The position numbers were made by a program, and so were the translations under genes. Source: Pseudomonadota bacterium (lineage in GTDB: Bacteria; Pseudomonadota; Alphaproteobacteria; Acetobacterales; Acetobacteraceae). Taken from it: 64,000 nucleotides of DNA. The notes under the pieces are model-generated. The model ran no database searches. It had not been told where the DNA came from and saw nothing but the letters and a program-made list of their open reading frames with translations. Positions 19,606-36,238 of this stretch are shown here, piece by piece. Position 1 is the stretch's first letter. Each line of letters opens with the position of its first letter. The stretch covers positions 1-64,000 of the forward strand of contig JAJZFA010000011.1 of the NCBI GenBank assembly GCA_021805565.1. The letters are read 5' to 3'.

Positions 19606-19623
19606 CCCCGCTTCCGCCGGTTG

Positions 19624-19699
19624 GGGGCCGTAGCTCAGTTGGGAGAGCGCCTGAATGGCATTCAGGAGGTCAGGGGTTCGATTCCCCTCGGCTCCACCA
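19624..19699 (+). tRNA. tRNA-Ala (anticodon GGC)
   Basis: A full cloverleaf can be folded by eye. The acceptor stem is GGGGCCG paired with CGGCTCC (one G-T pair), the D arm is GCTC...GAGC, and the anticodon arm is CCTGA-ATGGCAT-TCAGG with anticodon GGC. The T arm is AGGGG-TTCGATT-CCCCT, followed by encoded ACCA. The 3' half, from the anticodon stem through CCA, is the integration site of the following element and is repeated at 36180-36238. Confidence 0.97.
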
Positions 19700-19708
19700 G
19701 CGGTTTCA
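19650..19708 (+). repeat. attL direct repeat (59 bp)
   Basis: Identical base for base to 36180-36238. It starts at the anticodon stem of tRNA-Ala and runs 9 bases past the CCA end. Bases flanking both copies differ (position 19649 versus 36179, and 19709 A versus 36239 G), which fixes the repeat limits. This left copy belongs to the intact tRNA; the right copy is a partial tRNA only. Confidence 0.93.
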
Positions 19709-19757
19709 ATCAGTTAGACCGAAAATAGAGTGTCATCTACCCATTGATGCAATACTC

Positions 19758-19778
19758 GCGGACCAACGGCGGACCAAC
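19758..19778 (+). repeat. left pair of GCGGACCAAC direct repeats
   Basis: Two 10-bp copies at 19758-19767 and 19769-19778, one base apart, 50 bp inside attL. An equally spaced pair occurs at 36036-36056 near attR. Short tandem direct repeats on both arms are typical of arm-type binding sites for tyrosine integrases; that role is inferred from position. Confidence 0.7.
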
Positions 19779-19855
19779 CGAACACGTGCGGACCTGCCGC
19801 GTCCTCCATCGCCAGCATCATCGTTCCCGGTCTGCGTTCGCTACCCCGCGATCGC

Positions 19856-20095
19856 CGAAGGACGGATTTATGTGTGTCGCGTGAGGGTTGCCGTCCGGCC
19901 TTGGGCAGTTGGCACGCGAGCCGATTTGACGACGCGGGGGCCTTCCCGGACCACTACCTATCGCTCAAAACGGTGTTCCGAGTGTTCCGGTGTTCCAAAT
20001 GTCTCTAAGTAACTGTTTTAAAATATAAATCTATGGAACACCTTGTGGATTTTGCCCGGAACACCGCTGTTGCCGGTGTTCCAAACCGAAGCGCC
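19856..20095 (+). repeat. GTGTTCC block, copy 1
   Basis: About 240 bp duplicated in diverged form at 21509-21750. Both copies contain AAGGACGG, then CCTATCGCTCAAAACGG, three close GTGTTCC motifs, an AT-rich gap, two inverted motifs (GGAACAC type) and a final GTGTTCC. In this copy six exact GTGTTCC/GGAACAC heptamers lie at 19973, 19982, 19990, 20035, 20058 and 20076 (first bases). The arrangement of direct and inverted motifs round an AT-rich core resembles a protein-binding or replication-origin region. Confidence 0.6.
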
Positions 20096-20115
20096 CGGCC
20101 TCCCAATGCTAACGA

Positions 20116-20590
20116 TTCAGTCCGGACGACTCGCCATCCGGCCATCGCGACAGCACAACCGGGCCATCGGCCAGGGGGTAGCATCCGCCAGGTTGCGCGC
20201 TCCGCTGAATTGCTTCGCCTCGATCGGCAGCATCATCGTCGCCGGTCGCCACTGTTCAGTCCGGACGACTCGCCATCCGGCCATCGCGACAGCACAACCG
20301 GGCCATCGGCCAGGGGGTAGCATCCGCCAGGTTGGGCGCTCCGCTGAGTTGCTTCGCCTCGATCGGCAGCATCATCGTCACCGGTCGCCGCTGTTCAGGC
20401 CTGGCGGCTCGCCATCCGGCCATTACGACGGCACGACCGGGCCATTGGCCGGGGGCAGTATCCGGCAGGTTGCGCGCTCCGCTGAGCTGCTTCGCCTCGA
20501 TCGCCAGCATCATCGTCACCGGTCGCCACTGTTTCGGGCCGGGCAGGTCGCCCGCCACGCATCGCGCCGGCATATCCGGCCCACCGGCCA
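20116..20590 (+). repeat. 139-bp tandem repeat array
   Basis: Three full units, 20116-20254, 20255-20393 and 20394-20532, each exactly 139 bp, followed by a partial, degenerate fourth unit. Units 1 and 2 differ at only a few positions; unit 3 is more diverged. Each begins TTCAG or similar and includes CTCGCCATCCGGCCAT and GCAGCATCATCGTC. A related fragment lies at about 19803-19835. Unit length is not a multiple of three, so this is not a repeat protein. Confidence 0.85.
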
Positions 20591-20633
20591 ACGCCAGCAC
20601 ATGGCGCGCGCCGGCGGCGTGCCGAAACGCACG

Positions 20634-21215
20634 TTATTCGGCAGCGCGCGCAAAAAGTGTTGGCTCCGTGTCTTCCGGGGGGATGAGACTCTGGATAAAC
20701 CTCACGAGGTCTCGCTGGCATTCCGAGAGCGCTTTATCGAGGTCGGCTATCAGATCCTCGGAGAGCCGATGCCTAAGGCCGAAACTGCGGACCATTTTAT
20801 GCTCCGCTCTATTCAATTCTCGCAATAGATTACTGAGCGCTTCACTGACCTTCGCAGCCTCTACCAGGCGCCCGCACGCATATTCTTCCTCCCGCCGTAG
20901 TTTGCGCACCTTCATTAGGGTCAACTGGTCGGCAGGCCGGACACACGGGGCTGCGTCGATCGGCGGCCCTCCGTTATGACCCAACGGCAAAGCGAACTGA
21001 CGAAGCGCCGCCTGGCGTTCGGTATCGGCCTGGGCATCGGCCTCCCGCCGCTCGTTAAGGAAAGCAACGACCGCTTCATGGTCGAACGACCAGTCGCGGC
21101 CTCGGCCACCTTGCGTAAGCACCGGGAAAGCGTCGCCGTATCGCGTCATATAGACGTTGAGGGTGGGAAGGCTACAGCCCAACATCTGTGTCAGTTCGGC
21201 CTTGTTGACTCGCAT
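20634..21215 (-). CDS. phage terminase small subunit (Nu1/DUF1441-like)
   Basis: 193 residues with an N-terminal winged helix-turn-helix (MRVNKAELTQMLGCSLPTLNVYMTRYG and the following DAFPVLTQGGRGRDWSFD), a short helical linker (AVVAFLNERREADAQADTERQ), and a C-terminal helical region after the LGHNGGPP segment. The layout matches small terminase subunits that recognise the packaging site of a phage. No large terminase subunit is present in the element. Satellites often carry their own small subunit to redirect a helper's packaging machine. Confidence 0.75.
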   Translation of the reverse strand: MRVNKAELTQMLGCSLPTLNVYMTRYGDAFPVLTQGGRGRDWSFDHEAVVAFLNERREADAQADTERQAALRQFALPLGHNGGPPIDAAPCVRPADQLTLMKVRKLRREEEYACGRLVEAAKVSEALSNLLRELNRAEHKMVRSFGLRHRLSEDLIADLDKALSECQRDLVRFIQSLIPPEDTEPTLFARAAE

Positions 21216-21508
21216 TTTGCAACCCTGGGATCGAAGTAATACTGCCGCCGGACGACAAAAAAAGCAACAAAACCAAGCATATTTTATTTTGCGAGAGGGA
21301 CCGTCAAGCCGGGGTCCGAATTACCCGTGGCACATTTTTTTGGCCGGGAGGGACCCATGAAATTCACGAATTCCAGACCTGCGCTTTTGGCATGTCAATA
21401 GGCAACCGCTGGCAAATGCCCCGGCAGACCTGGCGGCGTCGCATCCGGCTTCGAGAGTAAGCGTGTGCGATCTGGCCGAGTGCGCACGCTGCCCCTTTGG
21501 TTACCCAA

Positions 21509-21750
21509 GGACGGTGCTATGTGCGCCGCGCCGGCACGGCCGTCCGCCGTTGGACAGAGGGCAACGCGGGCGGGCTTGGACAACGGGGGTGCCTGCCTGG
21601 ACTTCTGCCTATCGCTCAAAACGGTGTTCCTGGTGTTCTGGTGTTCCATCGCTCATTAAGCAATTGTTAGTAAATGTGAATTCATCGAACACCTTTTGGA
21701 TTATGCCGGAACGCCACCATTGCCGGTGTTCCAAACCGGAGCGACCGGCG
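21509..21750 (+). repeat. GTGTTCC block, copy 2 (diverged)
   Basis: Second copy of the ~240-bp block at 19856-20095. CTATCGCTCAAAACGGTGTTCC is shared in part, as are the AT-rich middle and the closing GCCGGTGTTCCAAACCG. Here some heptamers are mutated: GTGTTCT at 21633, CGAACAC at 21686 and GGAACGC at 21718. Exact copies remain at 21624, 21641 and 21726. Loss of motifs suggests copy 1 is the maintained one. Confidence 0.6.
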
Positions 21751-21760
21751 TGCCAGCGAA

Positions 21761-21895
21761 AGCGGAAAAGGAATTGCCGCCTGGCGGTGCCCAATCGCGG
21801 ATCATGCCAGATTGGTCATCCAGCACGCTCGGTCCCGACTGGACGCGGCGACCGTCCGGCGTCGTCCTATCCCGGCCGCACGCGGTTTGCCGGCG
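21761..21895 (+). repeat. ~135-bp repeat, copy left of the toxin-antitoxin genes
   Basis: Aligns by eye with 22907-23043 in the same orientation. Shared segments include GCGGTGCCC.ATCGCGGATC, TCATCCAG.ACG.T.GGTCCC and the closing CGTCCGGCG region. The two copies flank the toxin-antitoxin pair. They could be recombination scars from acquisition of the cassette or binding sites of an element protein. Confidence 0.55.
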
Positions 21896-22081
21896 CCTTA
21901 CGCTCATCGTGCGCGGCCGTCCGGTATGGTTCATTCCGGCCGCAGGGGGCTTTGCCAGCGCCTTGCGCTCACTTTGTGCGGCCTATCCCCATCATTTGCC
22001 GATAGGGTGGCACCAGGCCACGCCGCGACGGTTACAGCGCCGGGTAAGGATGCGGGCAGGCGGACGCCTATTTCCGCCGGA

Positions 22082-22435
22082 TTATGCTGCCTCACGCCGG
22101 AGCGCCCGCGCGACCATATCGGGTTCCCTGGCAATCACCCGCAAATAGGCGAGGGCGGGCGCGTCGGGTTGCTTGCGGTTTTGTTCCCAGTCGCGGAGCG
22201 TCCCGACCGGCACATGGAACCGCGCCGAAAACTCGGCCTGCGAAATGCCCAGCCGTTTCCGCACCGAACGGGCGATCGCGGCAGCGGTCTCCGCCGCACT
22301 GAGGATTGCCGCCGCATCCGGATCGCTGGCGACATTCCGAGCGATATCCTCATCGGTCTGTGCGTCGATCGCAGCCCAGTCGGTATCCCGCGCGGCCTGC
22401 CGGGCCATTGCGGCGGTAACTTTCACTATAGCCAT
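22082..22435 (-). CDS. HTH antitoxin partner of BrnT-like toxin
   Basis: 117 residues: an N-terminal acidic segment (TDWAAIDAQTDEDIARNVASDPDAA) like BrnA-type antitoxins, and a C-terminal XRE helix-turn-helix (RKRLGISQAEFSARFHVPVGTLRDWEQNRKQPDAPALAYLRVI). It is expected to neutralise the upstream toxin and autorepress the pair. Its start overlaps the toxin stop by 10 bp, as is typical of toxin-antitoxin operons with the toxin first. Confidence 0.85.
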   Translation of the reverse strand: MAIVKVTAAMARQAARDTDWAAIDAQTDEDIARNVASDPDAAAILSAAETAAAIARSVRKRLGISQAEFSARFHVPVGTLRDWEQNRKQPDAPALAYLRVIAREPDMVARALRREAA

Positions 22436-22686
22436 GTAAGTTGCTCCTGACGGCTGGCCTTGCGAACCGAGATCACGCGGTAAGCATGGCCGCGTTTCGT
22501 ATAGGTGCAGACAAACAGCCTTCCATCGACCGGGCCGAAGACGTTCATACGGACCTCGCCATAATCCCGCCGGCTGTCCGCGATTTCAACGATACGGTTT
22601 TCGAGTACGATCAGACCAAGGGCCAGCGATACGCCGTGCTTGGCAAAATTCGCCGCGTCTTTTTCAGGATCGTACTCAATGTCCAT
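22426..22686 (-). CDS. brnT: BrnT-family RNase toxin
   Basis: 86 residues of the BrnT fold: DIEYDPEKDAANFAKHGVSL at the start, then a beta-sheet core with RRDYGEVRMNVFG and the conserved YRVISVRKASRQE near the end. BrnT toxins are RNases that slow translation under stress; here the likely role is stabilising the element in the chromosome or blocking phage growth. ATG 22686 heads the pair, and the antitoxin follows on the same strand. Confidence 0.88.
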   Translation of the reverse strand: MDIEYDPEKDAANFAKHGVSLALGLIVLENRIVEIADSRRDYGEVRMNVFGPVDGRLFVCTYTKRGHAYRVISVRKASRQEQLTWL

Positions 22687-23146
22687 GGTTCATATACGGC
22701 TAAGCCGCACGATATCAAGAGCACCCGTAGGGTCGTTCGAACCGTCCGGTCAATCTTTCAGGCACCCACAACCGGCAGACGGAGTGTTCCGTCGTGGGGT
22801 GCGTTGCCGCCGCGCCGATTGCGGGCGGGCGGAGCGTTCCGTCGCGGGATGCGCTATCGCCGCACCGAGGGCACAGGCTGGCGGCGTATCCCGCCGCACG
22901 ATGGCTTGCCGATGCGCCCGGAACCGGAAAGAAAATTGTTGCTTGCCGGTGCCCGATCGCGGATCGTGCCGGATCGCTCATCCAGTACGTTGGTCCCGGC
23001 TGGATGCCTCGGCCGTCCCGCATCGTCCGTCCGGCGCACACGCCAACCGCGACGGCGATGCGGGCAGGGGAGGCGACCATTTCCCGTTTTGCCCGATTTT
23101 GCGCGCCTGAATTACTCAATTTATCATACGAAATGCGGTATATACT
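22687..23146. other. non-coding region with repeats upstream of brnT
   Basis: No gene was recognised. It holds two tandem 50-bp units (about 22772-22871, marked by GGAG.GTTCCGTCG.GGG at 22781 and 22831). The second copy of the ~135-bp repeat follows (22907-23043). The brnT promoter presumably lies close to 22690-22740, which is locally AT-richer. Confidence 0.5.
22907..23043 (+). repeat. ~135-bp repeat, copy right of the toxin-antitoxin genes
   Basis: Direct-orientation partner of 21761-21895, roughly three-quarters identical by eye. It is non-coding in both places; no conserved reading frame is kept between the copies. Confidence 0.55.
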
Positions 23147-25198
23147 TCAATTTACTTCGGTGCCTTCAATAATGTCTTCTCCGGCATCGAAAATCTTCGG
23201 CAGCACGTGATACAGGCGCATCTTCCCATAGCCGGGCGGACAAAGGCTTCTCGCCGCCTTGTTGTCCGCCCCCGCCAAGATGAAGCCCTGGTCTACGAGG
23301 AAGCGGATTGCCTGACGTCGGTCGAGGCCTGTGAAGACTTCCTTCGTGGCCTCGACCGTCAGGTAGTAGTGCCATACATCCGGGCTCTTCAGGGAGTCGG
23401 GCTTGCGGCGTCGCCATCCGGCGCGGGCCACCGTGCGAAAATGCTCCGTGGCAGGCGACGGGGGCGGCGGCGATGGATCAATCTCCGCCTCTTCGATTTT
23501 CAGTCGCCGCTTTTCCCATTTCTCCTGATCGGTTTGCGGTTTCTCGATTCGCGATTCCTTGGTTGGCTGTTCCTGGCTTTGTTGTCCCTGGCCTTGCGGT
23601 TCATTTTGCTCCGAGTGGCGCCATTCATGAAACCGCGAATCGCCGTGACGCGTTAGAAAATCGCGAAGTTGTGCCACTGCCTGTGCATCTTCGTGCGCAC
23701 CCCGCGTGCCTCGCTCCTTCAACCAATCCTTGAAGCACGTATAGGCCGCACCGGTTGCGATGTCGTGATCCCAGCCGGTGATGCCGGCTTGCGTTGCTCT
23801 TTCGCCGGCCACCGCGACCAGGGCAAAGCGCCGCGCGACGCTGCGCACCTGCCCGCCCGCATCCGGGTAAGGCCGAATCCACTTCGTTACCAACCGCTGC
23901 ATCCAGTCGCGGTTATCGTCGGCAAAACCCGGTTCGGCAGCCTTCGCCACCAGATATTCCAGGAACGCGACCGCCGCCGAACCGTAGGCGCGGGTTGTTC
24001 CGGCGCGAAGGGACTGGATGAATGTTTCGGCATCGGCCGTTCCATGCAGTTCCTCGAACAGGCCCAGCCCCTTGCCGGCATCGGCGGGGATATCGACCAG
24101 GCGCACTTCCTGTCCGGCCTTCACGCGGCGGCCGGGACCGCCCTCGGCAATTTTATCCCCCAGGGACAGTTCGCCGGTACTCAGGAACAGAACCCGGAAC
24201 CGGGCAGGCGCCCGCAGGCCGCCGGCGCGATCCGACCTGGCCTTGCCCTGGCCGCTCGCCAGCAAATACGCGGTATCGCCGACACCCCGCGCATCGGCCT
24301 GCCCCAGCTCATCGAGGGGTAACAGCGTGTCGCTTTGCGCCAGCGCCAGCCCTTCCATGGCATTGTCGGTTGCGCGCCACTGGCGGATATAGCCCGCAGC
24401 GCCGCTGCCAGGGCTTCCGCCCCATACGCTGGCCGCGACACGCAGCGCCGTGGTCTTGCCGACGCGCGACGCGCCCCGGAAGTGCAAGCCGCCGCCTTCC
24501 TCCCCGGCCCCTTCCAAAAGCGGCCCGGCGAACGCGGCGGAGACCGCGAGCAAGAGCCGCGAATTGCCTACGCACCGCGCGGCGACCGATGCCTGCCAAT
24601 CCGCCACCGTGCCCATCGCGTTGAACAAAGACGCATCGTGTATCGCGGGCTGATAAACGACCTCCACCGATGGCGTTCCGAACGTGCGATCCGGCAGCAC
24701 GAACACCGGGACGCCATCGATCCGGTGCCACCCCGTGCGGGTTACGATCCGGGCGCGCCGGTCGGTCGATACGCGCGACAGGTATTCAGCCAGGAGGCCG
24801 CGCGTGCCGTGCGACGGGTTCACGTACAGCCCGCGCCGCGCGAGCTGGTTTCGCAGATCGCCGCCGTCGCCGGCGAACAGATCGCGCCTTATGACCATAT
24901 GCTGAAGCGCCCCGTCGAAATCCCTGAAACGCAGCATCAGGCCCCAGGCGGACGATTCATCGTCGCGTGTCTGCGACATGACTTCGAACGGCCCCGATAC
25001 CGGCAGCGGGGCGCCTTCCGATATCTTGAAAAGGCCGTTAGGGCGCATTTCCAGGATGCCGCCGCTGGTCCTGATAGACGGCGCCTCCCCTGCCGGCGCG
25101 TCGCTTCCCCGCGTATCGCCGGCGGATTGAGGCGGTATGGTCTCGGCTTGCCCGACCGCATCCCGGATGGCTGTCCGGGCGCCTTTTTTCGCGGTCAT
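23147..25198 (-). CDS. DUF927-domain helicase-like protein
   Basis: 683 residues. The DUF927 region, which occurs in primase-helicases of phages and mobile elements, carries a Walker A GASRVGKTT at 242-250, a Walker B-like DTLLPLDELGQ around 293-303, and conserved TRTGWH upstream. A low-complexity Gln/Pro/Glu-rich, charged linker (about 540-600) precedes a C-terminal domain that may be a winged helix. The start overlaps the Toprim gene stop by 4 bp (ATGA), so primase and helicase functions are co-translated as a replication module. Confidence 0.85.
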   Translation of the reverse strand: MTAKKGARTAIRDAVGQAETIPPQSAGDTRGSDAPAGEAPSIRTSGGILEMRPNGLFKISEGAPLPVSGPFEVMSQTRDDESSAWGLMLRFRDFDGALQHMVIRRDLFAGDGGDLRNQLARRGLYVNPSHGTRGLLAEYLSRVSTDRRARIVTRTGWHRIDGVPVFVLPDRTFGTPSVEVVYQPAIHDASLFNAMGTVADWQASVAARCVGNSRLLLAVSAAFAGPLLEGAGEEGGGLHFRGASRVGKTTALRVAASVWGGSPGSGAAGYIRQWRATDNAMEGLALAQSDTLLPLDELGQADARGVGDTAYLLASGQGKARSDRAGGLRAPARFRVLFLSTGELSLGDKIAEGGPGRRVKAGQEVRLVDIPADAGKGLGLFEELHGTADAETFIQSLRAGTTRAYGSAAVAFLEYLVAKAAEPGFADDNRDWMQRLVTKWIRPYPDAGGQVRSVARRFALVAVAGERATQAGITGWDHDIATGAAYTCFKDWLKERGTRGAHEDAQAVAQLRDFLTRHGDSRFHEWRHSEQNEPQGQGQQSQEQPTKESRIEKPQTDQEKWEKRRLKIEEAEIDPSPPPPSPATEHFRTVARAGWRRRKPDSLKSPDVWHYYLTVEATKEVFTGLDRRQAIRFLVDQGFILAGADNKAARSLCPPGYGKMRLYHVLPKIFDAGEDIIEGTEVN

Positions 25199-26232
25199 TC
25201 AGCGTATTCCGCCTGTAACGTATCGTTGAAATCTTTTCCGGTCGGCGGATGCGCCACCTTGACGACGCGGCCTTGTGCCTGAAAGGCGCCGATCGCGCGG
25301 GCGAAGGCTTTCCGGGTTGCCGGGTTTTTGCCGTCTTCGTCTTTAAGCAGGATCACCGATCGCACGGCGGGCGGCAGCTTTACGTTTGCCATGTTAGCGA
25401 GGGAGACAGCGCACAGGACCCGCAGTTCGGGACATGCCATGACAACCGACAGCGCTGTTTCGATGCCCTCCCCGATCGCCACGACCTCCCCGTCCGGCGC
25501 CCGCGCCAGGGGTTTCTTGGAGGCGCCGCGCCATAGCCGGATCGCCCCGCCCGCCAGGCGCCCGAGCGACATCTTGGGATCCTGAAGCGGTGCCTTGCGC
25601 CAGCGCGCGTCGCCGTCCGGAGCCAGCCATGTGCGATGGACAGACACCATGTCGCCGGCATCGTTCGTGACAGCGGCCAGCATGGCAGGCCAGCACCGGC
25701 CGCTTTCGCGATTCCAGATCGCGGGGTGATACCGGATGCTACGGGGCTGGCGGGCCAGCTCCGCCAGATCGATCCCGCGCCCCGCGAGATAGGACGCGAC
25801 CGGCGTACCGGCCAGCCGTTCGGTGCCGGACAGGAACATGCCGATCGCCGCCTGCCGCGTGGCGGCTTCGTCCCGGCTGACCGCCGCGGGATCGGCCGGC
25901 GGAGGCGGCGGATGGCGCTGTTCGTCCGGTGCGGGCGTATCGCTTAACCCGAGCCAGGCCTTGGCCCAGGCGATCGCGTCGCGCATGTTTCCGCCGCAGG
26001 CGACGAAGGCAACCAGGTCCAGCGCGTCGCCTGTTTCACCGCTGGCAAAATCCGACCAGACGCCGGCCTTTTGCCCCGACAGGTGGACGCACAGGCTTCG
26101 CCGCGATGTGCCGGTCAGGCTTGGGTGGACCCATTCATGCGCAATGCGCTTGCCACCGGGCAGCAGGCGTTCGGCCAGTCCGGGCGCCTGTGCGGCCAGC
26201 ATGCGCGACAGGTCCTTCGCATCAATGGACAA
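25195..26232 (-). CDS. Toprim-domain primase
   Basis: 345 residues. An N-terminal part with the zinc-finger-less primase pattern (GQKAGVWSDFASGETGDALDLVA) precedes a Toprim domain with GEGIETALSV (catalytic Glu) and the acidic LLKDEDG motif. The domain is found in primases of satellites and prophages. The start is TTG 26232, overlapping the upstream gene by 11 bp. With the DUF927 protein it probably drives replication of the excised element. Confidence 0.88.
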   Translation of the reverse strand: MSIDAKDLSRMLAAQAPGLAERLLPGGKRIAHEWVHPSLTGTSRRSLCVHLSGQKAGVWSDFASGETGDALDLVAFVACGGNMRDAIAWAKAWLGLSDTPAPDEQRHPPPPPADPAAVSRDEAATRQAAIGMFLSGTERLAGTPVASYLAGRGIDLAELARQPRSIRYHPAIWNRESGRCWPAMLAAVTNDAGDMVSVHRTWLAPDGDARWRKAPLQDPKMSLGRLAGGAIRLWRGASKKPLARAPDGEVVAIGEGIETALSVVMACPELRVLCAVSLANMANVKLPPAVRSVILLKDEDGKNPATRKAFARAIGAFQAQGRVVKVAHPPTGKDFNDTLQAEYAE

Positions 26233-27081: not shown

Positions 27082-27123
27082 GATTCGGGTCTCCGCCAGG
27101 GGGTGCCTTAGACGGCCACAGGT

Positions 27124-28855: not shown

Positions 28856-29317
28856 CTATCCACGACCGGCGCCGTCCCTGAAATCGCGGAGCAGCGCCGC
28901 GACCATGCGAGCATCCCAGTGCCCATCGGGTCCCGGATCGTCCGCCATTTCACCAGCCCAGCGCAGCATCATGGCAGCACGGGCCATCAGGCCCGCGATC
29001 GTCGTGGCGGGCATGGCGCAAATGCTATCCAGCAACGCTTTTTGCCGGTCGTGGAACGGTGCGGCAGCCGCATCCCGCGCGACGTCATCGGCGACCGGCG
29101 TCGCGCCGTCGCTGTAGAATCCATCTATGCGGTCCTCCAGCGCCACGAACGCCTGGCACAGGCCGATCAGTTCGCGATCCGGTTCCAGGCCTGGGGGCGC
29201 GGCGCCGGCGCGGGTTGCGCCGCCGGTTAGCGCCGCCAGGGCCACGGCGCCGGCAACGTGGCCGAACAGCGGACGCCGGCCGGTTCGCGCGTCCGGTTCC
29301 GGGGGTGAAAGGGCCAT
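28856..29317 (-). CDS. small Tat-signal-like protein, uncharacterised
   Basis: 153 residues with an N-terminal twin-arginine-like hydrophobic segment (TGRRPLFGHVAGAVALAALTGG) and a helical body with the DRQKALLDSICAMPATTIAGLMARA motif. I recall similar short proteins with Tat-like signals in alphaproteobacterial prophage regions; their function is unknown. The start overlaps the preceding gene's stop (TGATG). It is the last of three tightly coupled genes. Confidence 0.65.
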   Translation of the reverse strand: MALSPPEPDARTGRRPLFGHVAGAVALAALTGGATRAGAAPPGLEPDRELIGLCQAFVALEDRIDGFYSDGATPVADDVARDAAAAPFHDRQKALLDSICAMPATTIAGLMARAAMMLRWAGEMADDPGPDGHWDARMVAALLRDFRDGAGRG

Positions 29318-29730
29318 CAGCGGGTCTCCCCGGTCAGCAGAACATCCCGCGCCATTCCGGCCGTCATCCGGATCGTGGCCGATTCCATCAGGGCGGCGAC
29401 ACCTTCGTAGCGGGCCTTCAGGGACAAAAGCTCCCCCGTGAACTCGGCTGCCTGCAACGCCCCGATTTCCCGCACATAGGCGAGCATCCGTACCTCATCG
29501 GCGTGCATGACATGCGCCGCTACCCGCATCACGCGATAATCGACCGACGCTTCCGCCAGCCAATCCCGCAGCGTGCCGAGCCTGTCCAGCACGCTGCTGC
29601 CCTCACCGGGGAAGGTCAGGGCGGCGTAGTCCGCGATCGTGGCGGCGCGGAATTCCGGTGATCCGGTACCGTTGCCGGCGCCGCGGGCCGGGCGCTTTGC
29701 CGGGGGTGCCCGGCGGGATTGCGATTTCAT
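29317..29730 (-). CDS. uncharacterised helical protein
   Basis: 137 residues, basic N-terminus (KSQSRRAPPAKRPARGAG) and a helical body without recognised motif (YRVMRVAAHVMHADEVRMLAYVREIG). It sits between two small proteins with Tat-like signals, overlapping both by a few bases, and must be translated with them. Function unknown. Confidence 0.6.
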   Translation of the reverse strand: MKSQSRRAPPAKRPARGAGNGTGSPEFRAATIADYAALTFPGEGSSVLDRLGTLRDWLAEASVDYRVMRVAAHVMHADEVRMLAYVREIGALQAAEFTGELLSLKARYEGVAALMESATIRMTAGMARDVLLTGETR

Positions 29731-30389
29731 GCCCGCGCCCCCTTGCCGTTACGTGCGAAGGCCGCGACCGTAAGTGCCGGATCGACGGATGCCATGTCCT
29801 GGATGAGCCGTTGCCGCCGTTCCGCAAGGGGCGCATGCACGGCGCACAGGTGCCTTAGGTCGCCCCAGCCGATCCGGTCTATATCGAGGTTGCCGGCCTG
29901 CACGACCGCCAGCAGCACGCTTGCTATCAGGCCGCGAAGGTCCTTAGCCGTCCGGTCCAGTTCATCCTGTGTCGCGCGGGCGGCATCGACCCATTCGACG
30001 CGGCCGAACGCGACGGCAAGCTGGTTAGCGGCGTCTTCCAGCGTGAGCGCGGGACAGAACACAATCTTGTCCTGAATCGCGAAGCATTCGCCGAGATTGG
30101 TATCGAAATCCGCATACAATCCATTGTATGCCGGCCCTGAGGGCATGTTGGACAGGTACGCGTCCATGGCCGTGCGCCGCCGCACGAGGTTATGGAGTTC
30201 GGCGCTGAGGGCCGCGATGGCGGTTGTGCCGGGAACCGGTACCGGCGGCGGCCGTTCCCCGGCCGGGGCGTTTTCCGCCCGGCCGCTGTTGCCGGGGGCA
30301 CCGGTCGCGGCGGCGACAGCGGCGAATGCCGGCAGCTTTGCCAACAGTGTCCGGCGGGATGGTGTCTGTGTCGCATCAGCCTTTGGCAT
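29727..30389 (-). CDS. small Tat-signal-like protein, uncharacterised
   Basis: 220 residues starting at ATG 30389 with AGGA upstream. It has a twin-arginine-like signal (PSRRTLLAKLPAFAAVAAATGAP), then a Pro-rich stretch and a helical body. Architecture resembles the protein at 28856-29317, which suggests the two share ancestry, although sequence identity is low. It heads the leftward operon and is divergent from the ribbon-helix-helix gene. Confidence 0.65.
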   Translation of the reverse strand: MPKADATQTPSRRTLLAKLPAFAAVAAATGAPGNSGRAENAPAGERPPPVPVPGTTAIAALSAELHNLVRRRTAMDAYLSNMPSGPAYNGLYADFDTNLGECFAIQDKIVFCPALTLEDAANQLAVAFGRVEWVDAARATQDELDRTAKDLRGLIASVLLAVVQAGNLDIDRIGWGDLRHLCAVHAPLAERRQRLIQDMASVDPALTVAAFARNGKGARA

Positions 30390-30446
30390 TGTTTTTTCCT
30401 GTCCTTGGTTAGGCCTGTGAGGCGGCGGCGTTCTGCATGATGGTAT

Positions 30447-30532
30447 TTGATGCAAAGATGCAAACGCACAAAAGCATCAATTTCTGGGATGCGCAAGGTG
30501 CGTGTGCACCATTGATTCACAAAGTGCGTTTG
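30447..30532. promoter_or_regulatory. nested inverted repeats between divergent genes
   Basis: Three inverted repeats lie in 86 bp: TTGATGC (30447) with GCATCAA (30474); CAAACGCAC (30461) with GTGCGTTTG (30524); and the palindrome GGTGCGTGTGCACC (30497-30510). They sit between the leftward operon start (30389) and the ribbon-helix-helix gene (30536), the usual place of an operator bound by such a regulator. Binding itself is inferred. Confidence 0.55.
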
Positions 30533-30535
30533 AGT

Positions 30536-30733
30536 ATGTTCGTCACTATGACGGGAAATACCGATCCGATCCTTCGGAAAACGATATCGATGCCTGCCAG
30601 CGTATGGCAAAAAATAGAAAATTTTCAGTTTGATAACCGCATCAAACGAGAGTCCGAAGCGATTCGGCGCGTTATCGAGCTTGGCCTTGAAGCGGCCGAG
30701 GCACACGGCAACGCGAAGCCGGAGACTACGTGA
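30536..30733 (+). CDS. ribbon-helix-helix regulator
   Basis: 65 residues from ATG 30536 (or 30548). A beta-strand ILRKTISMPASVWQKI is followed by two helices ending SEAIRRVIELGLEAAEAH, the ribbon-helix-helix pattern of small repressors (CopG/Arc type). A frame open further upstream (ATG 30437) would run through the inverted repeats and does not look coding. It is probably a repressor of its own promoter and of the divergent leftward operon. Confidence 0.75.
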   Translation: MFVTMTGNTDPILRKTISMPASVWQKIENFQFDNRIKRESEAIRRVIELGLEAAEAHGNAKPETT

Positions 30734-30790
30734 ACGCTTGGGGTAGCGGTATCGGTGGCGATCCGGCGGGCGTTTCCAGAACCACCGCGA

Positions 30791-31189
30791 ATGGCTAAGC
30801 CGCGCGCTATTCCGGCTTGGCCCCGAGCGCTATGCGAAGACTGGGTGGCGGCTTACGTGGGGCAGCTTTCGCTTAGCGCGTTCCGTAACGAGGTCGATGC
30901 CGGCCGGATTCCCGCCGCCGTCAGGCTAACGGCCGGGCGCAAGGCGTGGCTCATCGAGGACCTTGACGGCTACCTCGATCGACGGCGCGGCGGATTGTCC
31001 CAATCCGCCCGCGAACCGTCGCTGGCGGAAATGGTTGCGCAGTGGGATGACGCCTGTGCGGCGTTCGATGTCGCCGGAAGCAAGCAGACCGAGGCACCGC
31101 GCCGTGCCAGGTCAGGCAGGCCGGTGCCCGCTGCCAGACGAGGCAAGGCCTCAACGGGCGAAGCCGGGATCCTGCCCGGATCGCGATGA
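30791..31189 (+). CDS. AlpA-like HTH protein with disordered tail
   Basis: 132 residues from ATG 30791 (GTG 30755 possible). The N-terminal half reads like an excisionase/AlpA domain: CEDWVAAYVGQLSLSAFRNEVDAGRIPAAVRLTAGRKAWLIEDLDGYLDRR. The C-terminal third is Arg/Pro/Ala-rich and probably disordered. It follows the ribbon-helix-helix gene on the plus strand, possibly as the second gene of a control operon, and ends just before the 106-bp tandem array. Confidence 0.65.
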   Translation: MAKPRAIPAWPRALCEDWVAAYVGQLSLSAFRNEVDAGRIPAAVRLTAGRKAWLIEDLDGYLDRRRGGLSQSAREPSLAEMVAQWDDACAAFDVAGSKQTEAPRRARSGRPVPAARRGKASTGEAGILPGSR

Positions 31190-31249
31190 CACGCCGTCCC
31201 GATCGAGGCAGCGCCAACGGCCGCACCCGATTGCGGATGCCTCAACAGG

Positions 31250-31720
31250 CATGGAACATCGTCGTGGCTGGTCGCGCGGCCGTCGCCGGGCTGCCGCTGC
31301 CGTGCCTGTGCCGCCGCGCCAGGCGCATCGGCTGGCCGGAGCCTTCAACGGCCGGGCGTGCCGTCGTGGCCGGTCGCGGGGCCGTCGCCGGGCTTGCCGT
31401 TGCCGTCCGTGTGCCGCCGTGCCCCGCCAGGTGCATCGTCCGGCCGGAGCCTTCAACGGGCGGGCGTGCCGTCGTGGCCGGTCGCGCGGCCGTCGCCTGG
31501 CTGCCTCTGGCGTGCCTGTGCCGCCGCGCCCCGCAGGTGCATCGTCCGGCCGGGGCCTTCAACGGGCGGGCGTGCCGTCCTGGCCGGTTGCGTGGCCGTC
31601 GCCGGGCTTGCCGTTGCCGTCCGTGTGACGCGCCCCCGCCAGGTGCATCGTCCGGCCGGGGCCTTCAACGGCCGGGCGTGCCGTCATGGCCGGTTGTGTG
31701 GCCGTCGCCAGTCTGCCGCG
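31250..31720 (+). repeat. ~106-bp tandem repeat array
   Basis: At least four units, marked by CCTTCAACGG at 31342, 31450, 31556 and 31662 (spacing 108, 106, 106 bp), with a partial unit before and after. Each contains GGGCGTGCCGTC.TGGCCGGT and GCCGTCGCC. It is extremely GC-rich. Every frame is open, but the 106-bp spacing shifts register each unit, so the apparent Arg-rich ORFs are not genes. The 580 bp from 31190 to 31769 hold nothing else recognisable. Confidence 0.85.
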
Positions 31721-31769
31721 CGGCGATTCCGGCGAGCCGGAGCGCCGCGCCCGGCCTGCCCGCGGGGCC

Positions 31770-32570
31770 TTAATGCGCTCCCTTCGCGATTTCCTCCATG
31801 AGCGCGCGCATCATTTCCTTTTCGAAGTTTCGGCGGGCATAGGTATTGACCATTTCCTCGAACGGGAATCGCGCCGCGTATGTCGGGTTGCGGCGGGCGA
31901 AGTAGAACGCGGGCACGACTTTACCCTTCGATACAAGCTGGTAGATGCCCAGCGGCGCGCCATCGACTTTGCTGTGCGCGACGAAGTAATCGGTTCCGCC
32001 GAACTGCCTTACCCCGTCGATATCATTGCCGCCGCGACGGGCCGCCATACGCGCCCGTTTTAGCTGCTTCAGCCGTTTGTCCGATACGTTGGCGCGATAC
32101 CCCGTTTCCCCCAGCGCGCTCAGCCGCGACAGGATTTTCACCATGATCCGGCCGGGCACGTTTCCGTACGCGTCCAGGTCGAAGCCTTCGGCCGGGATAA
32201 TGTGCTGACCCGGTTGCATCAATCCTTTCGCGATCAATGCTTTTTCAGACCGCTTAAGGTTGCGGGGGCCTCCCTCGATTTCCGGCTTCAGGTATTTCCG
32301 GGGCGACAATCCCTTTGCGGCATCGTCGCTGATGTAGACCATGGATGTGAGGTTGTCCCGTGTCGCCGCCATGTAGCGGACCGAGTTCATGGTGAAAGGG
32401 GTTGGCCGGTCGAACAAGGTCTCCATCCGCGTCATGACCTCGGTACGCGCTCCGGTTGCCAACCGCGTTAATGTTTTCGCCATCGCTGTAGGTATGTGCT
32501 TGTCGGCAAGTGCCAGCAGCGATTTTTCCATGCGTAAAAAGGCCGATGGATCGATCTTGAGTTCTATCAC
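31770..32570 (-). CDS. phage minor tail/neck protein (gpZ-like)
   Basis: 266 residues resembling prophage minor tail proteins of the lambda gpZ group. An N-terminal helical stretch (IPTAMAKTLTRLATGARTEV) is followed by the characteristic FDRPTPFTMNSVRY, LSPRKYLKPEIEGGPRNLKRSEKAL and LDAYGNVPGRIM segments. In a complete phage it would lie with tail genes; here it is the only recognisable structural protein. It could alter or complete helper-phage particles. Confidence 0.65.
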   Translation of the reverse strand: MIELKIDPSAFLRMEKSLLALADKHIPTAMAKTLTRLATGARTEVMTRMETLFDRPTPFTMNSVRYMAATRDNLTSMVYISDDAAKGLSPRKYLKPEIEGGPRNLKRSEKALIAKGLMQPGQHIIPAEGFDLDAYGNVPGRIMVKILSRLSALGETGYRANVSDKRLKQLKRARMAARRGGNDIDGVRQFGGTDYFVAHSKVDGAPLGIYQLVSKGKVVPAFYFARRNPTYAARFPFEEMVNTYARRNFEKEMMRALMEEIAKGAH

Positions 32571-32714
32571 GGTGTCAGTCCTTTCGTCCGCAACGGCTTT
32601 GTTTCTTTATTACAATACACGTTCCGGCCGGGCGTGTCCGGCGCGATTCCTTTGGCGCCGTTCTTTTGACGCGATTGCTCCGGCGATCCGGAGCGCGCGC
32701 GCCGGCCCGCGCGG

Positions 32715-33026
32715 TCAGCCGCCGTCGTTGTTGTACGTTCCGCTGTCGAATGGGCTTCCATCGGTGTTGACCGGCCCATCGCCGCCGCGCATTGCCCCGC
32801 GCACATAGGCCAGCGCGATTTCCTCCATCAGCGCGGCCTTTTCCGGCAACGCCCGCGTGGCCATGATTTGCGCGATTCCGGACAGGCCGCCGATCAGCAG
32901 CGCCATCAGGTTCTTTTCGCTGTCGCCCCGTTCCAGCCGGCGGCGCATTTTGTCCCTGAGTGCCTCGATTACGGTTTTGCGGCCGGCCTCGCCCGCGATC
33001 TCCCATGCCTCATCCGCCGCGTTCAT
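32715..33026 (-). CDS. small uncharacterised protein
   Basis: 103 residues, helical (TVIEALRDKMRRRLERGDSEKNLMALLIGGLSGIAQIMA), ending in a Gly/Asn-rich tail. The start overlaps the stop of the upstream coiled-coil gene by 4 bp (ATGA). No family recognised. Its stop is 145 bp upstream of the gpZ-like gene. Confidence 0.6.
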   Translation of the reverse strand: MNAADEAWEIAGEAGRKTVIEALRDKMRRRLERGDSEKNLMALLIGGLSGIAQIMATRALPEKAALMEEIALAYVRGAMRGGDGPVNTDGSPFDSGTYNNDGG

Positions 33027-34183
33027 GGCCGCCTCCCGAGCGCGTCCATTTGCGCCCGAGACAACGGCGGCCCGCCGTCGTCGTCCCCGGTATCCACCGG
33101 GATTGTTACGTCGCGGACGACCGATGGCGGCTGAAACTTTTGGCTAGAGGTATTCAGCTCGCTATCCAGCCTGACCTTACCTGCCGCGACGCGGGCTTCG
33201 CGTTCGATCAGGCTTTGAACTTGCCAGGGCCGTATCCTGCCCGCGATATCGGTAAAGATGGCGTCTGGCGCGGGCCGTGGAATTCCACCGGAAGCCTGAA
33301 GCCACAGCGTATCCATTTCGGCCGGTGTCAAGGGTTCCTTGCGGTCTATGCTTATATCCAGCGGGGCCGTGGCGATCTGGAGCGGCTTTCCGTGAGGCGA
33401 GGCATCCGCATCGGCGGCAGGGGCAGGCACCGGTTCCGGCGCGTGCGCGGGAGGGTTCGGCCGGGCGGTGCTATTGGCTGCCCTAGGTGTTCGCCGGCGC
33501 TGGTTCTCGATGCGCCCGACGTGCTGCCGCAGCGTGGCAATAAGTTCGTTGTCCGGCCGGTGCGCTTCGAACAGAGCGACCGATTCCGGATTCCCGCGCC
33601 ACGCGGTGTTCAGCGCGACCGGTTCGTCGTCCAGGATCATCCGGAAGCCGCCGATAAAGGGCTGGAACATGTCCCTGACCGGATTGACCAGCTTGGTGTC
33701 GGTCAGCAGCGGGCCTACCAGGATGCCGGCGGCACTTAGCGCGAAGCCGTCCTGGAGAATTTGCCCCAGTTGAACCGCCTGTGTGCGCAACCGTGCCGCC
33801 AGGTCGTATCTGGCCTTTACTGAAACGGACAACAGTTTCACCTCAAGCTCGGAGCGAGCACTGTATATTTCATCGTCGGCGGTCTCGGTCATGCCCGGAA
33901 TACGCTCTTGGAGCGATTTGATTCCAGTTTGTTCGCGTTGAGCCTTCGCCAGCTTCGCGGCCGCTGTTTCGGCTTCTTTCGCGCAGGCAGCCTGGCCAGA
34001 ACTGTCGGCCAGAATCGCATTCATTTCGGCATCCGCCTGTGCCGCGGCGGCATCGATTTCGTCCCGCGCGGCGGCCTGCAAACGCGCCGCCAGTTTCTTT
34101 TCCAGGTCCAGCACCTTTGTATAGCCGGCCAGCGCGGATTGCGCCCGTTGCCTTGCTTTTTCCAGGCTGTCGTTCGGTTCCAT
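33023..34183 (-). CDS. coiled-coil element protein
   Basis: 386 residues. The first ~130 residues are strongly heptad-like and Ala/Glu/Lys-rich (LEKKLAARLQAAARDEIDAA, AKEAETAAAKLAKAQREQ), a coiled-coil. A middle globular part (VGPLLTDTKLVNPVRDMFQPF) is followed by a Pro/Ala-rich linker and a C-terminal region. No domain recognised. The scaffold-like coiled-coil beside a tail-like gene makes a morphogenesis role thinkable, but this is speculative. Confidence 0.6.
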   Translation of the reverse strand: MEPNDSLEKARQRAQSALAGYTKVLDLEKKLAARLQAAARDEIDAAAAQADAEMNAILADSSGQAACAKEAETAAAKLAKAQREQTGIKSLQERIPGMTETADDEIYSARSELEVKLLSVSVKARYDLAARLRTQAVQLGQILQDGFALSAAGILVGPLLTDTKLVNPVRDMFQPFIGGFRMILDDEPVALNTAWRGNPESVALFEAHRPDNELIATLRQHVGRIENQRRRTPRAANSTARPNPPAHAPEPVPAPAADADASPHGKPLQIATAPLDISIDRKEPLTPAEMDTLWLQASGGIPRPAPDAIFTDIAGRIRPWQVQSLIEREARVAAGKVRLDSELNTSSQKFQPPSVVRDVTIPVDTGDDDGGPPLSRAQMDALGRRP

Positions 34184-34541
34184 AGCGATGTCCTTTACGG
34201 GTGGGATAGGGTGGCGACGCCGGAGAGACCGGCGCCGGTTAGGGCTTCAGCCGGTCGCGCGCGTTGCCGGATCGCGGTTTCCTGGCGGTATTGCGGCCGT
34301 CGCGGATTGTGCCGCCGCCCGGCCGGGCAACGGGACCGGCCGCACAGGGCAGGCCGCTGTGCGCTGCCGGAACGACGGAACCGGACGCGGGAGCGCCGGC
34401 AAGGTTTGCCGCCCCTGGTTTCCGGCCGGAGCGCCCGCACGTTGCGTCCGGGAAGAGTCTGGCATTTGTCCGGTGTCCTTCGCTATTGTGGCCGGACACA
34501 CCATGCCGCAATCCGGAAGACGGCTTATCCGGTGCCTTCCT
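34184..34541. other. intergenic region left of the integrase
   Basis: No gene seen in these 358 bp. The stretch is Arg/Pro-codon-like in all frames and GC-rich except its ends. It lies upstream of the coiled-coil gene and downstream of the integrase stop, so it should hold the leftward promoter for 33023-34183. Confidence 0.4.
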
Positions 34542-35804
34542 CTACTCTCCCCTACCGTCCGCCACGGTCAGCACGTGTTCGGCCCATGCCCGCAAAGCGG
34601 CCTCCCGCTCCTTCAGGAATTCGTGCCGCTGATAGACGGCCATGACGCCTTTGATCGACCCCTGCACGTGATTGAGCAGCCTGTCGGCGACATGGACGGC
34701 GTAGCCGAGGCGGGCCAGCCCGGTGACGCCGGTGCGCCGGAAATCGTGCCAGTGCCAGTACGGCGCCGCCGGCGGCGTCCGTCCTTTCGGCACCGCGGGG
34801 CGCTGTTTGGCGATCGCCGCTTTCAGATCCCCGTGCGCCTTCGAGAAGCCGGAGACAGGGGTCAGGTTGTTGGTGGTGAACACCAGGCGTTGGCCGTCCG
34901 CCCGTGGCACGCCGCGTAAAATCGCCCGCGCGGGTTCCGCCATGTGGACAATGTGGGCTTTGCGGTTTTTCGATCGCGTGCCGGGGATGGTCCATACGGA
35001 CAGGTCTGGCGTTAACTCCGCCCATCGCATCCCGGCGACCTCTCCCCGGCGCTGAAGCGTCAGGATGAGCAACCGGATCAGCGGGCCGAACGGATAGGGC
35101 GCGATCGCGGCGGCGCACCAGGCTTCGCGTAGTTCTGCGTCCGACAGAACACGGTCGCGGCTGAGTTCCCGGCGGTCCAGTTTGACCGATGTGAAGGGAT
35201 TTGCCGCGACCAGCCGGCGGCCGATCGCCCAGTTGAACGCCGCCCTGCCATAGTCGCGGGTCCGGCTGGCCACGACGGGCCGCGACATCGCCATGCCGTC
35301 GATGAGCTGCTGCACCGCGCCGGACCCGACCAGGTGTGCCGGACAGCCGAGCAGGGAGGCGAAGCCGGTGCGCAGCGCGCGCGGAGCCTCGATGCGGTGT
35401 GCCGGACTCCGGTCGGCCAGCCCGGTTGCGGCCCACTGGCCGATCAGCGCGCCGAAGGTGAACGCATCGGCGACCCGCGCCCGTTCGGCCGCGCCGGCCT
35501 CGGCCACCCGCGTTGCGGCGACGGCTTTGCGTTCGGCGGCCGGGTCCTGGCCGAGGCGGACTTTCGCTCGGGCGACTTCGGCCATGCGGCGTGCCGCCGC
35601 CGGGGTGACTTCGCCATAGGTTCCCAGGACCATGCGCGTGCGCCGGCCTGCCCGGCCACCAGTTTGGTACTGCAGGATGAAGGTTTTGGCGCCTTTTTCA
35701 GTCACTCTGAGGCCGAAGCCATGCAGATCGTCATCGAACACGATCAGATCGCGGCGGCCTTGCGGACAGGTGAGGGCGTCGATTTCGCTTTTTATGAGTT
35801 TCAC
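34542..35804 (-). CDS. int: P4-type tyrosine recombinase (integrase)
   Basis: 420 residues. The N-terminal arm-binding domain (VKLIKSEIDALTCPQGRRDLIVFDDDLHGFGLRVTEKGAKTF, DUF4102 type) is followed by a core-binding domain and a catalytic domain with Arg in TLQRRGEVAGMRW, HDFRRTG and nucleophile Tyr in VMAVYQRHEF. It starts at GTG 35804, giving the family N-terminus; an ATG at 35849 lies inside the repeat cluster. The gene is about 375 bp inside attR, as is usual for such elements. Confidence 0.93.
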   Translation of the reverse strand: MKLIKSEIDALTCPQGRRDLIVFDDDLHGFGLRVTEKGAKTFILQYQTGGRAGRRTRMVLGTYGEVTPAAARRMAEVARAKVRLGQDPAAERKAVAATRVAEAGAAERARVADAFTFGALIGQWAATGLADRSPAHRIEAPRALRTGFASLLGCPAHLVGSGAVQQLIDGMAMSRPVVASRTRDYGRAAFNWAIGRRLVAANPFTSVKLDRRELSRDRVLSDAELREAWCAAAIAPYPFGPLIRLLILTLQRRGEVAGMRWAELTPDLSVWTIPGTRSKNRKAHIVHMAEPARAILRGVPRADGQRLVFTTNNLTPVSGFSKAHGDLKAAIAKQRPAVPKGRTPPAAPYWHWHDFRRTGVTGLARLGYAVHVADRLLNHVQGSIKGVMAVYQRHEFLKEREAALRAWAEHVLTVADGRGE

Positions 35805-36179
35805 GGCGCGGGCACCGATGGAACACCATGGAACACCGGACATTTGCAAGGTGTTCCATGGTTTCGGCGGTTTGGAACCTGCGATATCAGTATCTTATAT
35901 ATGTGTGGAACACTGGAACACCATAGAACACCTGATTTAACGTGTTCTTGGGCACATAGACCGTGAACAAGATAGGTACACACGCTGGCCTGTCGCATGG
36001 TCCGGACCCTTCTGATGCTCCGCCGTGTTTTTCCCGCGGACCAACCGCGGACCAACGGATTCGGGTATCCTTAGCGTCTCATGGCGGCGTGTGTCACGAT
36101 CCGGGTTTGCTATGCCTTTGAAATGGCGCCTATTGGCGGTTAGTGGCAGCGTGCGGCATTTCATGCCGGTTGCGATATT
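35805..36179. other. right non-coding end with GTGTTCC motifs
   Basis: Between the integrase start and attR. Exact heptamers GGAACAC/GTGTTCC lie at 35820, 35830, 35851, 35907 and 35915, with near copies at 35874, 35925 and 35942, around an AT-rich TATATATGTG core. The integrase promoter must lie here, so the motif probably both regulates int and marks the right arm. The paired GCGGACCAAC repeats follow at 36036. Confidence 0.6.
36036..36056 (+). repeat. right pair of GCGGACCAAC direct repeats
   Basis: Copies at 36036-36045 and 36047-36056, separated by one base, exactly as in the left pair (19758-19778), and 124 bp inside attR. Shared orientation and spacing at both ends support arm-type integrase binding sites. 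Confidence 0.7.
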
Positions 36180-36238
36180 CCTGAATGGCATTCAGGAGGT
36201 CAGGGGTTCGATTCCCCTCGGCTCCACCAGCGGTTTCA
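36180..36238 (+). repeat. attR direct repeat (59 bp)
   Basis: Perfect copy of 19650-19708, comprising the anticodon stem through CCA of tRNA-Ala plus nine bases. It lacks the tRNA 5' half, so it is not a functional tRNA gene. It marks the right boundary of the element. Confidence 0.93.

Follow-up and report, generated by a model that had tools for sequence, protein, structure and literature searches.

The 64,000-nucleotide window analyzed here (positions 1 to 64,000 of contig JAJZFA010000011.1, assembly GCA_021805565.1, from a Pseudomonadota bacterium of the family Acetobacteraceae) contains a 16.5-kb element in a tRNA-Ala(ggc) gene, which is very probably an integrated phage satellite working like a cos-type phage-inducible chromosomal island (PICI). 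Our high confidence in the satellite reading comes from the anatomy of the element (Table 1). As a first-pass annotation of this DNA had proposed, the element occupies tRNA-Ala, and it is delimited by a perfect 59-bp direct repeat of the 3' half of the tRNA gene, with the two copies (attL and attR) lying 16,530 bp apart. In the host draft genome (4.49 Mb, 64 contigs, 98.5% complete), attL and attR were the only perfect matches to this tRNA-Ala end, the next best being 89% identical. Probable integrase arm-type repeats lie near attL, and a tandem similar to these GGACCAAC-type repeats was present near attR (about 36034-36056).

Within these bounds, the element carries its own lambda-type cos site, a predicted cut site. 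The motif was first spotted by eye upstream of the small terminase gene (TerS) in prophages of the family, in the window, in a same-genus locus (L020), and in a sister element (G048). Two models were made from phage sites only: a profile of 11 prophages and phage F10, run with nhmmer against 46 sequences (836 kb), and a sequence-only model of 13 prophage sites, run with cmsearch. Both recovered the window site, at 4.5e-10 and 6.2e-16, respectively, and in the 4.49-Mb draft genome it was the sole match of the cos model. The first profile also matched L020 (4.5e-8), L073 (8.2e-10), and six satellites without a TerS match (L106, L112, L108, L105, L109, and L110). The order of the parts is that of lambda, where cosQ (GGGTCCT) is followed by a 23-nt spacer and cosN (GGGCGGCGACCT), compared with a 24-nt spacer in the window, and a cosB-like tract extends from cosN to the terminase start; cosQ, cosN, and cosB are the names in use for lambda. 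In the homologous position, the deposited ends of phage MD8 have 12 nt in common (GGTAATTCGAGC), as do those of F10; the ends of JBD68 are without GGTAATTCGAGC, yet they fall inside the cos motif. On the linear map of F10, TerS is encoded first and the tail gene gpZ last, gpZ, cos, and TerS being adjacent on the circle. The small terminase of the element matched the PDB profiles 6hn7 and 1j9i (terminase small subunit, 1.1e-7), and its match to Pfam Phage_Nu1 (6.3e-6, 26.3 bits) was under the cut-off of 30.

By its sequence, the replication module is similar to that of Staphylococcus aureus pathogenicity islands (SaPIs) and is accompanied by iterons. The DUF927 protein matched the PDB entries 5dgk ('Active helicase', 2e-18) and 8tch ('Pathogenicity island protein', 4.7e-12), the latter of which we take to be the SaPI Rep. 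The iteron words GGTGTTCC and GGAACACC occur 16 times in the window, and 12 of these copies fall within the element (binomial p=5.6e-5, the word having been selected post hoc). Clusters 1 and 3 lie just inside the element ends and cluster 2 next to cos. The near-duplicate iteron regions 19925-20105 and 21576-21755 (77-84%) flank TerS-cos, an arrangement that calls to mind satellite P4, in which a cis region is annotated as duplicated. As in Gram-negative PICIs, the sequence shows a predicted origin 3' of the rep gene, with iterons flanking an AT-rich core and the BrnT and helix-turn-helix (HTH) genes intervening. The same iteron word was enriched 3' of DUF927 in two relatives (G145 and G321), while L020 uses GTGTTCCA; variants were present in several other elements, and none in G048 or G234.

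Profile searches bore out the integrase, Toprim primase, DUF927, AlpA, small terminase, and gpZ identities given in the first-pass annotation, and no large terminase (TerL), portal, capsid, lysis, or conjugation gene, all of which it had called absent, turned up in the profile scans. Iterated profiles gave no match to TerL or portal among the window open reading frames (ORFs) of at least 60 aa, and gpZ was the sole match when the F10 virion proteins were compared with the window. No lysis match was obtained, no capsid family was found among the ORFs scanned in PHROGs, and the Pfam-scanned ORFs included neither a relaxase nor any other family of conjugation genes. In the draft genome, TerL was not found by PF05876 or PF03354, each of which gave matches in 3 of 14 genomes in the control runs. 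The cos site, the iterons, the BrnT toxin with its HTH partner, and the int-alpA RNA were missing from the earlier annotation. Helper dependence, which we infer, is now anchored by the cos site.

Cos sites and satellite-type loci in related genomes

A contig scan with DUF927 yielded three loci. At the same tRNA-Ala(ggc), the same-genus locus L020 has the order o539-AlpA-o232-Toprim-DUF927-cos-TerS, and its proteins are 62% (AlpA), 76% (Toprim), 69% (DUF927), and 62% (TerS) identical to those of the window. In two further genera (G145 and G361), AlpA-Toprim-DUF927-cos was found at tRNA-Ala(ggc) between perfect att repeats. A shared gene order at tRNA-Ala in other genomes, which the first-pass annotation had proposed as a check, is therefore present. 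More distant similarity was seen in an alignment scan with DUF927 (35 loci, best-segment identity 23-44%); single-protein scans of viral contigs gave no relative with DUF927 or gpZ and one weak locus with TerS (L023).

Among 299 genomes of the family, the Toprim protein was matched in 152 (a broad family, most members of which we do not claim as satellites) and TerS in 18. Forty stretches and 29 further loci, picked for a match to Toprim, TerS, gpZ, or cos, were examined. The cos model, built from 13 of the 17 prophage sites and none of the 14 satellite sites described below, detected 36 sites in 33 of the 299 genomes; L020 is an additional one outside the 36. Of 337 genomes drawn from across the class, seven had cos matches, two of them from the same family (the window's own genome included). 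A site was counted as prophage when a same-strand TerL lay within 3 kb and as satellite when DUF927 or Toprim lay within 8 kb without such a TerL. By these rules, 17 sites were prophage and 14 satellite (the window included), and five fitted neither rule (G030, G043, G165:C20, G326, and G353). TerL, which the first-pass annotation had named among the genes that would refute its reading, was matched nowhere in the stretches retrieved around these 14 satellite sites.

An opposite-strand tRNA gene was present in the stretch in all 14 satellites, in none of the 17 prophages, and in three of the five remaining sites. It lay at most 0.71 kb from cos in 11 of the 14 satellites, at 1.55 kb in the window, and at 2.9 kb in G204b; at 8.5 kb, the tRNA of G084 is too distant for its arrangement to be equated with the others. 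TerS adjoins cos in only two of the 14 (the window and G048), as well as in L020, the other 12 having cos without TerS, and the same two have gpZ within 12 kb of cos. When 15 elements were tested for att sites, 10 had a perfect 45-65-bp repeat of a tRNA end beyond the integrase gene, spanning 10.2-20.2 kb: at tRNA-Ala in the window, G361, and G145, at tRNA-Thr in G168, G344, G341, G228, and G321, and at tRNA-Lys in G304 and G356. Six of these 10 belong to the 14 cos satellites. The tRNA-end repeat was not found in G084 and G378, and the fetched stretches of G048, G151, and G225 have no integrase gene.

The gpZ-like protein is about 34% identical to those of Pseudomonas F10-like phages, and its profile had no PDB match. 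The sister element G048 has the order DUF927-gpZ-cos-TerS. A tree was made of 20 gpZ proteins, four of them from satellites or candidate satellites (window, G165, G048, and G353). These four required three changes between phage and satellite, at least two of which were forced by well-supported branches; the window and G165 were sisters (support 87/77). A single origin of satellite gpZ is not supported. We also considered whether satellite cos sites are copies of the cos of a same-genus prophage. This is suggestive for G344, whose cos matched best those of prophages G279 and G237 (identity 0.70 and 0.67); for the window, where identity was at most 0.60, it is not claimed.

Several relatives deserve a separate mention. 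The start of G165:C97 (L093) has Toprim-DUF927-gpZ and that of G165:C20 (L152) has cos and tRNA-Ala, and the two are probably one split satellite. A 20-kb att-bounded element (G344:C39, 42926-63189; L112, L163, and L174) has two AlpA and two o539-like genes and perhaps represents two satellites in tandem or nested. The satellites at tRNA-Pro in G151:C1 and G225:C33 (L155 and L156) have a BrnT-like gene and a second DUF927 fragment, with an HTH partner of BrnT in G151 as well. A DUF3800-VIII RNA (RF03075, 57.4 bits) lies inside the G145 satellite (L105, 16801-16871).

The int-alpA RNA

The leader of the AlpA operon contains an int-alpA RNA (RF02996), which may act as a C4-like immunity switch of the satellite. 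RF02996 scored above the cut-off in L111, L073, L112, and L098, four of the 15 further satellite loci that were searched. L108 and L106 have a match below the cut-off in the equivalent position, whereas none was listed for L110; in seven prophage loci the RNA was not found. A second model (R2), made from five copies including that of the window (2.9e-19), added 11 satellite loci (E<=2.7e-5), which brings the total to 16 of 30 satellite-type sources, a set in which two entries are the same contig and several end before alpA. Among 13 controls (prophages, F10, and P4), none matched at E<=0.01, the best value being 0.1.

In all 16 copies, the 7-mer of the hairpin loop pairs with two downstream 7-mers at six to seven of seven Watson-Crick positions, and in 15 of them an ATG, GTG, or TTG follows the second target at a distance of 2-8 nt; whether this start codon opens the next ORF was checked in the window, where a TTG at 28623 begins one of 499 aa. 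Three loop positions covary with the targets (for example CCTCATG/CATGAGG, CCCCACG/CGTGGGG, CATCACG/CGTGATG, and CTTCACG/CGTGAAG). When the targets were shuffled among distinct rows, pairing as good as that observed arose in 7 of 20000 trials for target 1 (10 rows) and in 2 of 20000 for target 2 (9 rows), counts that ignore relatedness and concern words chosen by eye. The loop (CCuUua) and the end (uaAgGG) of the Rfam consensus also pair, with one G-U. In the accessible part of the literature searched, the motif is only tabulated.

In P4, the loop of the C4 RNA has complementary targets, and the C4/CI RNA keeps the operon off. The Rfam search placed the C4 antisense RNA of P4 (NC_001609) at 8420-8507, with a C4-target match just below the cut-off, and reported no C4 antisense RNA (RF01695) at the gathering cut-off in 19500-36400 of the window. 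By analogy with P4 biology and this C4 match, in the resting state the int-alpA loop would pair with the apparent ribosome-binding site of o539 and with the second copy upstream of it and keep the operon off. A lambda/F10-like helper that enters or is induced would lead to the AlpA operon being switched on, whereupon AlpA and the integrase would excise the circle, and the primase and DUF927 protein would start its replication in the iteron region, yielding concatemers. The small terminase of the satellite (or of the helper) might bring the helper's large terminase to the satellite cos, and helper heads and tails would package the satellite DNA. This reading would give the orphan Rfam RNA int-alpA a function that can be tested, that of switching the satellite on and off.

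Alternative readings and known satellite families

A lambda/F10-like prophage that lost its morphogenesis genes and kept TerS, cos, and gpZ by chance seems unlikely. All three resemble one phage type, F10 keeps them adjacent on its circle, and G048 keeps DUF927-gpZ-cos-TerS; moreover, this reading gains some weight from the G035 prophage described below, which demonstrates that phages with such a replication gene exist. Decay by chance, however, hardly fits a replication core plus cos without TerL at 14 sites in 299 genomes, six with perfect att repeats and 12 having cos without TerS, nor the open core ORFs of the window. The repeated movement of gpZ between phages and satellites argues against a passive remnant as well, although this bears on descent rather than on function. 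Very unlikely is the view that the conserved site is a terminase promoter or operator and that packaging is headful or does not occur. In prophages, the site does lie just upstream of TerS, but the satellites that keep it next to a tRNA without an adjoining TerS indicate that it is not merely a TerS promoter, and it coincides with the deposited MD8 and F10 termini and matches the cosQ-spacer-cosN order of lambda. An integrative plasmid-like or mobilizable island spread by conjugation is scarcely credible: relatives of DUF927 and Toprim do occur on plasmids, and the Toprim protein matched part of the TraI model, far below the cut-off, but the Pfam scan found no conjugation family, and cos with a small terminase would have no role in such an island.

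Nearly an even call is whether the element is a strict Gram-negative PICI (the family of Fillol-Salom et al., 2018) that merely has a new host group. The integrase, regulator, replication module, iteron origin, cos, and size near 15 kb agree with it, as does the resemblance of DUF927 to a pathogenicity-island protein, and the conserved organization of integrase, replication module, and master regulator is found here. The absence of TerL, portal, and lysis genes also fits the lack of structural genes in this family, but the window, G048, and G165 have a phage tail gene, and because gpZ breaks this defining feature, we did not file the element as a strict PICI. Gram-negative PICIs typically measure 12-15 kb, compared with 16.5 kb here and the range given above for the 10 att-bounded elements. 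They are described as unidirectional in the accessible text of PMC6092414, whereas ORFs 30437-30733 and 30755-31189 of our element, if real genes, run opposite to the remaining ones. That text also describes cosQ, cosN, and cosB, and reports for EcCICFT073, a Gram-negative PICI, a cos site without TerS, as in 12 of the 14 cos satellites, and a cosB that could not be identified. Compared with EcCICFT073, the element has its own TerS, a cosQ-cosN-cosB-like stretch, a tail gene, opposed regulator ORFs, and an int-alpA leader. Tentatively, and leaning somewhat toward doubt, we suggest that the elements form a satellite lineage of their own, widespread among Acetobacteraceae-like bacteria and with a stolen cos, whose dormancy and superinfection immunity would depend on the int-alpA RNA: its single loop would compete for two covarying targets, a decoy and the ribosome-binding site of the first operon gene, in a C4-like switch that arose independently of that in P4. 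Some members would also have independently captured gpZ, which phages encode beside cos, as their own tail-completion protein for their own DNA end.

Several observations weigh against the satellite reading. Two of the 14 satellite cos matches are weak (G084, 6.7e-4; G204b, 1.7e-4), and the cos model found nothing in 11 other Toprim-DUF927 loci, some of them cut by contig ends (L093-L095, L097-L099, L101-L104, and L111), or in two Pseudomonas DUF927 loci (L021 and L022). Replication genes are not exclusive to satellites: G035:C48 (L076, ~2883-15806), probably a full prophage, has a DUF927 gene (39%) about 7 kb from TerL and portal as well as a gpZ match, and a Toprim gene is present in four cos prophages (G146, G204a, G245, and G287). 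The gpZ gene is a phage structural gene within the element. No cognate helper prophage is present in the genome, as judged from TerL, a second cos, gpZ, and Nu1. An empty site was not found either, the right flank not adjoining tRNA-Ala in 14 same-genus loci; the left flank and tRNA were intact in several relatives with a different sequence beyond, one of these being the L020 element itself. Eight loci negative with the cos model were inspected by eye, of which six were without GGGTCC and G341 had it on the other strand. In G321:C1 (~3947852-3948587, L098), GGGTCCT followed by GGGCGGCGAGAG, lambda-cosN-like and unscored, lies between DUF927 and tRNA-Thr.

The first-pass annotation had named PICI and P4 satellites together; a PICI-type function is supported, whereas membership of the P4 type is not. 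The element resembles P4 in that the integrase lies next to att, the iteron origins come with a cis region that is repeated, and an AlpA-like ORF is present (PMC8628076, accessible text), and in having a structured RNA ahead of the replication gene. It differs in that the Pfam scans gave none of the families of Psu, delta, epsilon, and P4-alpha, and in its RNA, which is int-alpA and not C4; PHROGs showed no sid in the window, sid's own profile not being used. With SaPIs it shares the initiator helicase family and the terS-or-cos packaging strategy, and differs in gene order, regulator (AlpA-like, not Stl), and host. Phage-inducible chromosomal minimalist islands also have an integrase, AlpA, and primase, but according to the accessible text of PMC10803314 they use a fis site, a DUF3987/DUF5906 primase, and probable headful packaging, compared with Toprim_3/DUF7146 and DUF927 at tRNA-Ala here. 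Capsid-forming PICIs are set apart by capsid, portal, and protease genes; the element has neither portal nor TerL, and no capsid family was seen in its PHROG-scanned ORFs. The F10/MD8-like siphophages and the 17 same-family cos prophages share cos, Nu1-type TerS, and gpZ with the element but carry TerL and, where the stretch reaches, portal. A helper-type cos without TerL, the mark of cos-packaged satellites, is what the sequence has.

No description of satellites in Acetobacteraceae-like bacteria was found in the literature searched, which mostly lacked subscription papers; the main text of PMC6092414 does not mention Alphaproteobacteria or Acetobacter, nor do the accessible parts of PMC10111431 and PMC11389934 mention Alphaproteobacteria. 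The satellite reading would extend cos-type satellites to a family without earlier description there. It offers sequence marks (a prophage-type cos next to a tRNA and DUF927, and the int-alpA RNA) that require no capsid or terminase genes, and predicts prophages with the same cos type as helpers.

Other genes and repeats of the element

The match of the AlpA-like protein to PF05930 (0.004) was under the family cut-off. Alignments of the o539 and o153 homologues are weak, and nothing was built on them. The ribbon-helix-helix regulator of the first-pass annotation stands as a repressor-like ORF by its PHROG match, whereas Pfam finds nothing in it. The 386-aa protein, called coiled-coil before, matched only its own genome among 145 relatives searched. 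No defense system was found by PADLOC, whose matches were weak (best 1.9e-4, HTH). A 30-nt copy related to the 139-bp repeats lies at 19803-19832, and the 98-nt repeats sit between gpZ and the opposed regulator ORFs.

Table 1. Features of the element and its integration site (positions in the window)
Feature	Position	Strand	Evidence or remark
tRNA-Ala(ggc), integration target	19624-19699	+	ARAGORN, Rfam tRNA
attL, 59-bp repeat	19650-19708		100% identical to 36180-36238
Integrase arm-type repeats, probable, GGACCAAC-type	19755-19779		25/25 identical in same-genus element
Iteron cluster 1, GGTGTTCC / GGAACACC, around AT-rich core	19972-20082		near-duplicate of cluster 2
Three 139-bp direct repeats	20116-20531		between TerS and attL; copies 2 and 3 97% and 63% to first
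Small terminase (Nu1 family)	20634-21215	-	PHROG 57 7.5e-9; 62% identical in L020
Predicted cos site, lambda type, directly upstream of terminase gene	21251-21367	-	prophage-only profiles
cosN GGTAATTCGGAC	21314-21325	-	12 nt
cosQ GGGTCCC	21350-21356	-	then 24-nt spacer to cosN
Iteron cluster 2 around AT-rich core, candidate origin	21623-21732		near cos
HTH protein, probable BrnT partner (antitoxin)	22082-22435	-	PF01381 1.9e-6; pairing suggested by overlap
BrnT-type toxin	22426-22686	-	PF04365 4e-19
DUF927 replication initiator / helicase	23147-25198	-	PF06048 1.7e-77
Toprim primase	25195-26232	-	PF13362 (Toprim_3) 4.5e-18; DUF7146 2.1e-29; PHROG 510
o232, conserved in L020	26222-26920	-	38% identity
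AlpA-like regulator / excisionase	26851-27081	-	HTH_17 1.1e-8; PHROG 66 5.1e-9
o539, 499-aa AT-rich ORF, TTG start, first gene after int-alpA RNA	27124-28623	-	L020 homologue
int-alpA target copy 2, apparent ribosome-binding site of o539	28629-28635	-	
int-alpA target copy 1	28644-28650	-	
int-alpA RNA (RF02996)	28650-28719	-	Rfam 37.0 bits vs cut-off 35.8; 1.57 kb before alpA
int-alpA hairpin loop	28679-28685	-	
o153	28856-29317	-	weak homologues in sister satellites
o137	29317-29730	-	no profile matches
o220	29727-30389	-	no profile matches
Repressor-like ORF	30437-30733	+	PHROG 4738 2.8e-5; Pfam nothing
Regulator-like ORF	30755-31189	+	PHROG 25900 3.4e-5
Five 98-nt repeat copies	31218-31737		spacing 102-108 bp; 61-91% to reference
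gpZ-like minor tail protein	31770-32570	-	PHROG 1924 2.9e-62
o103, start overlaps preceding gene's stop	32715-33026	-	no Pfam match; PHROG 0.029 only
386-aa protein	33023-34183	-	no Pfam or PHROG match
Tyrosine integrase	34542-35849	-	PF00589 1.3e-9; Arm-DNA-bind_3 1.7e-18
Iteron cluster 3 around AT-rich stretch, beside integrase gene	35820-35922		
attR, 59-bp repeat	36180-36238		100% identical to 19650-19708

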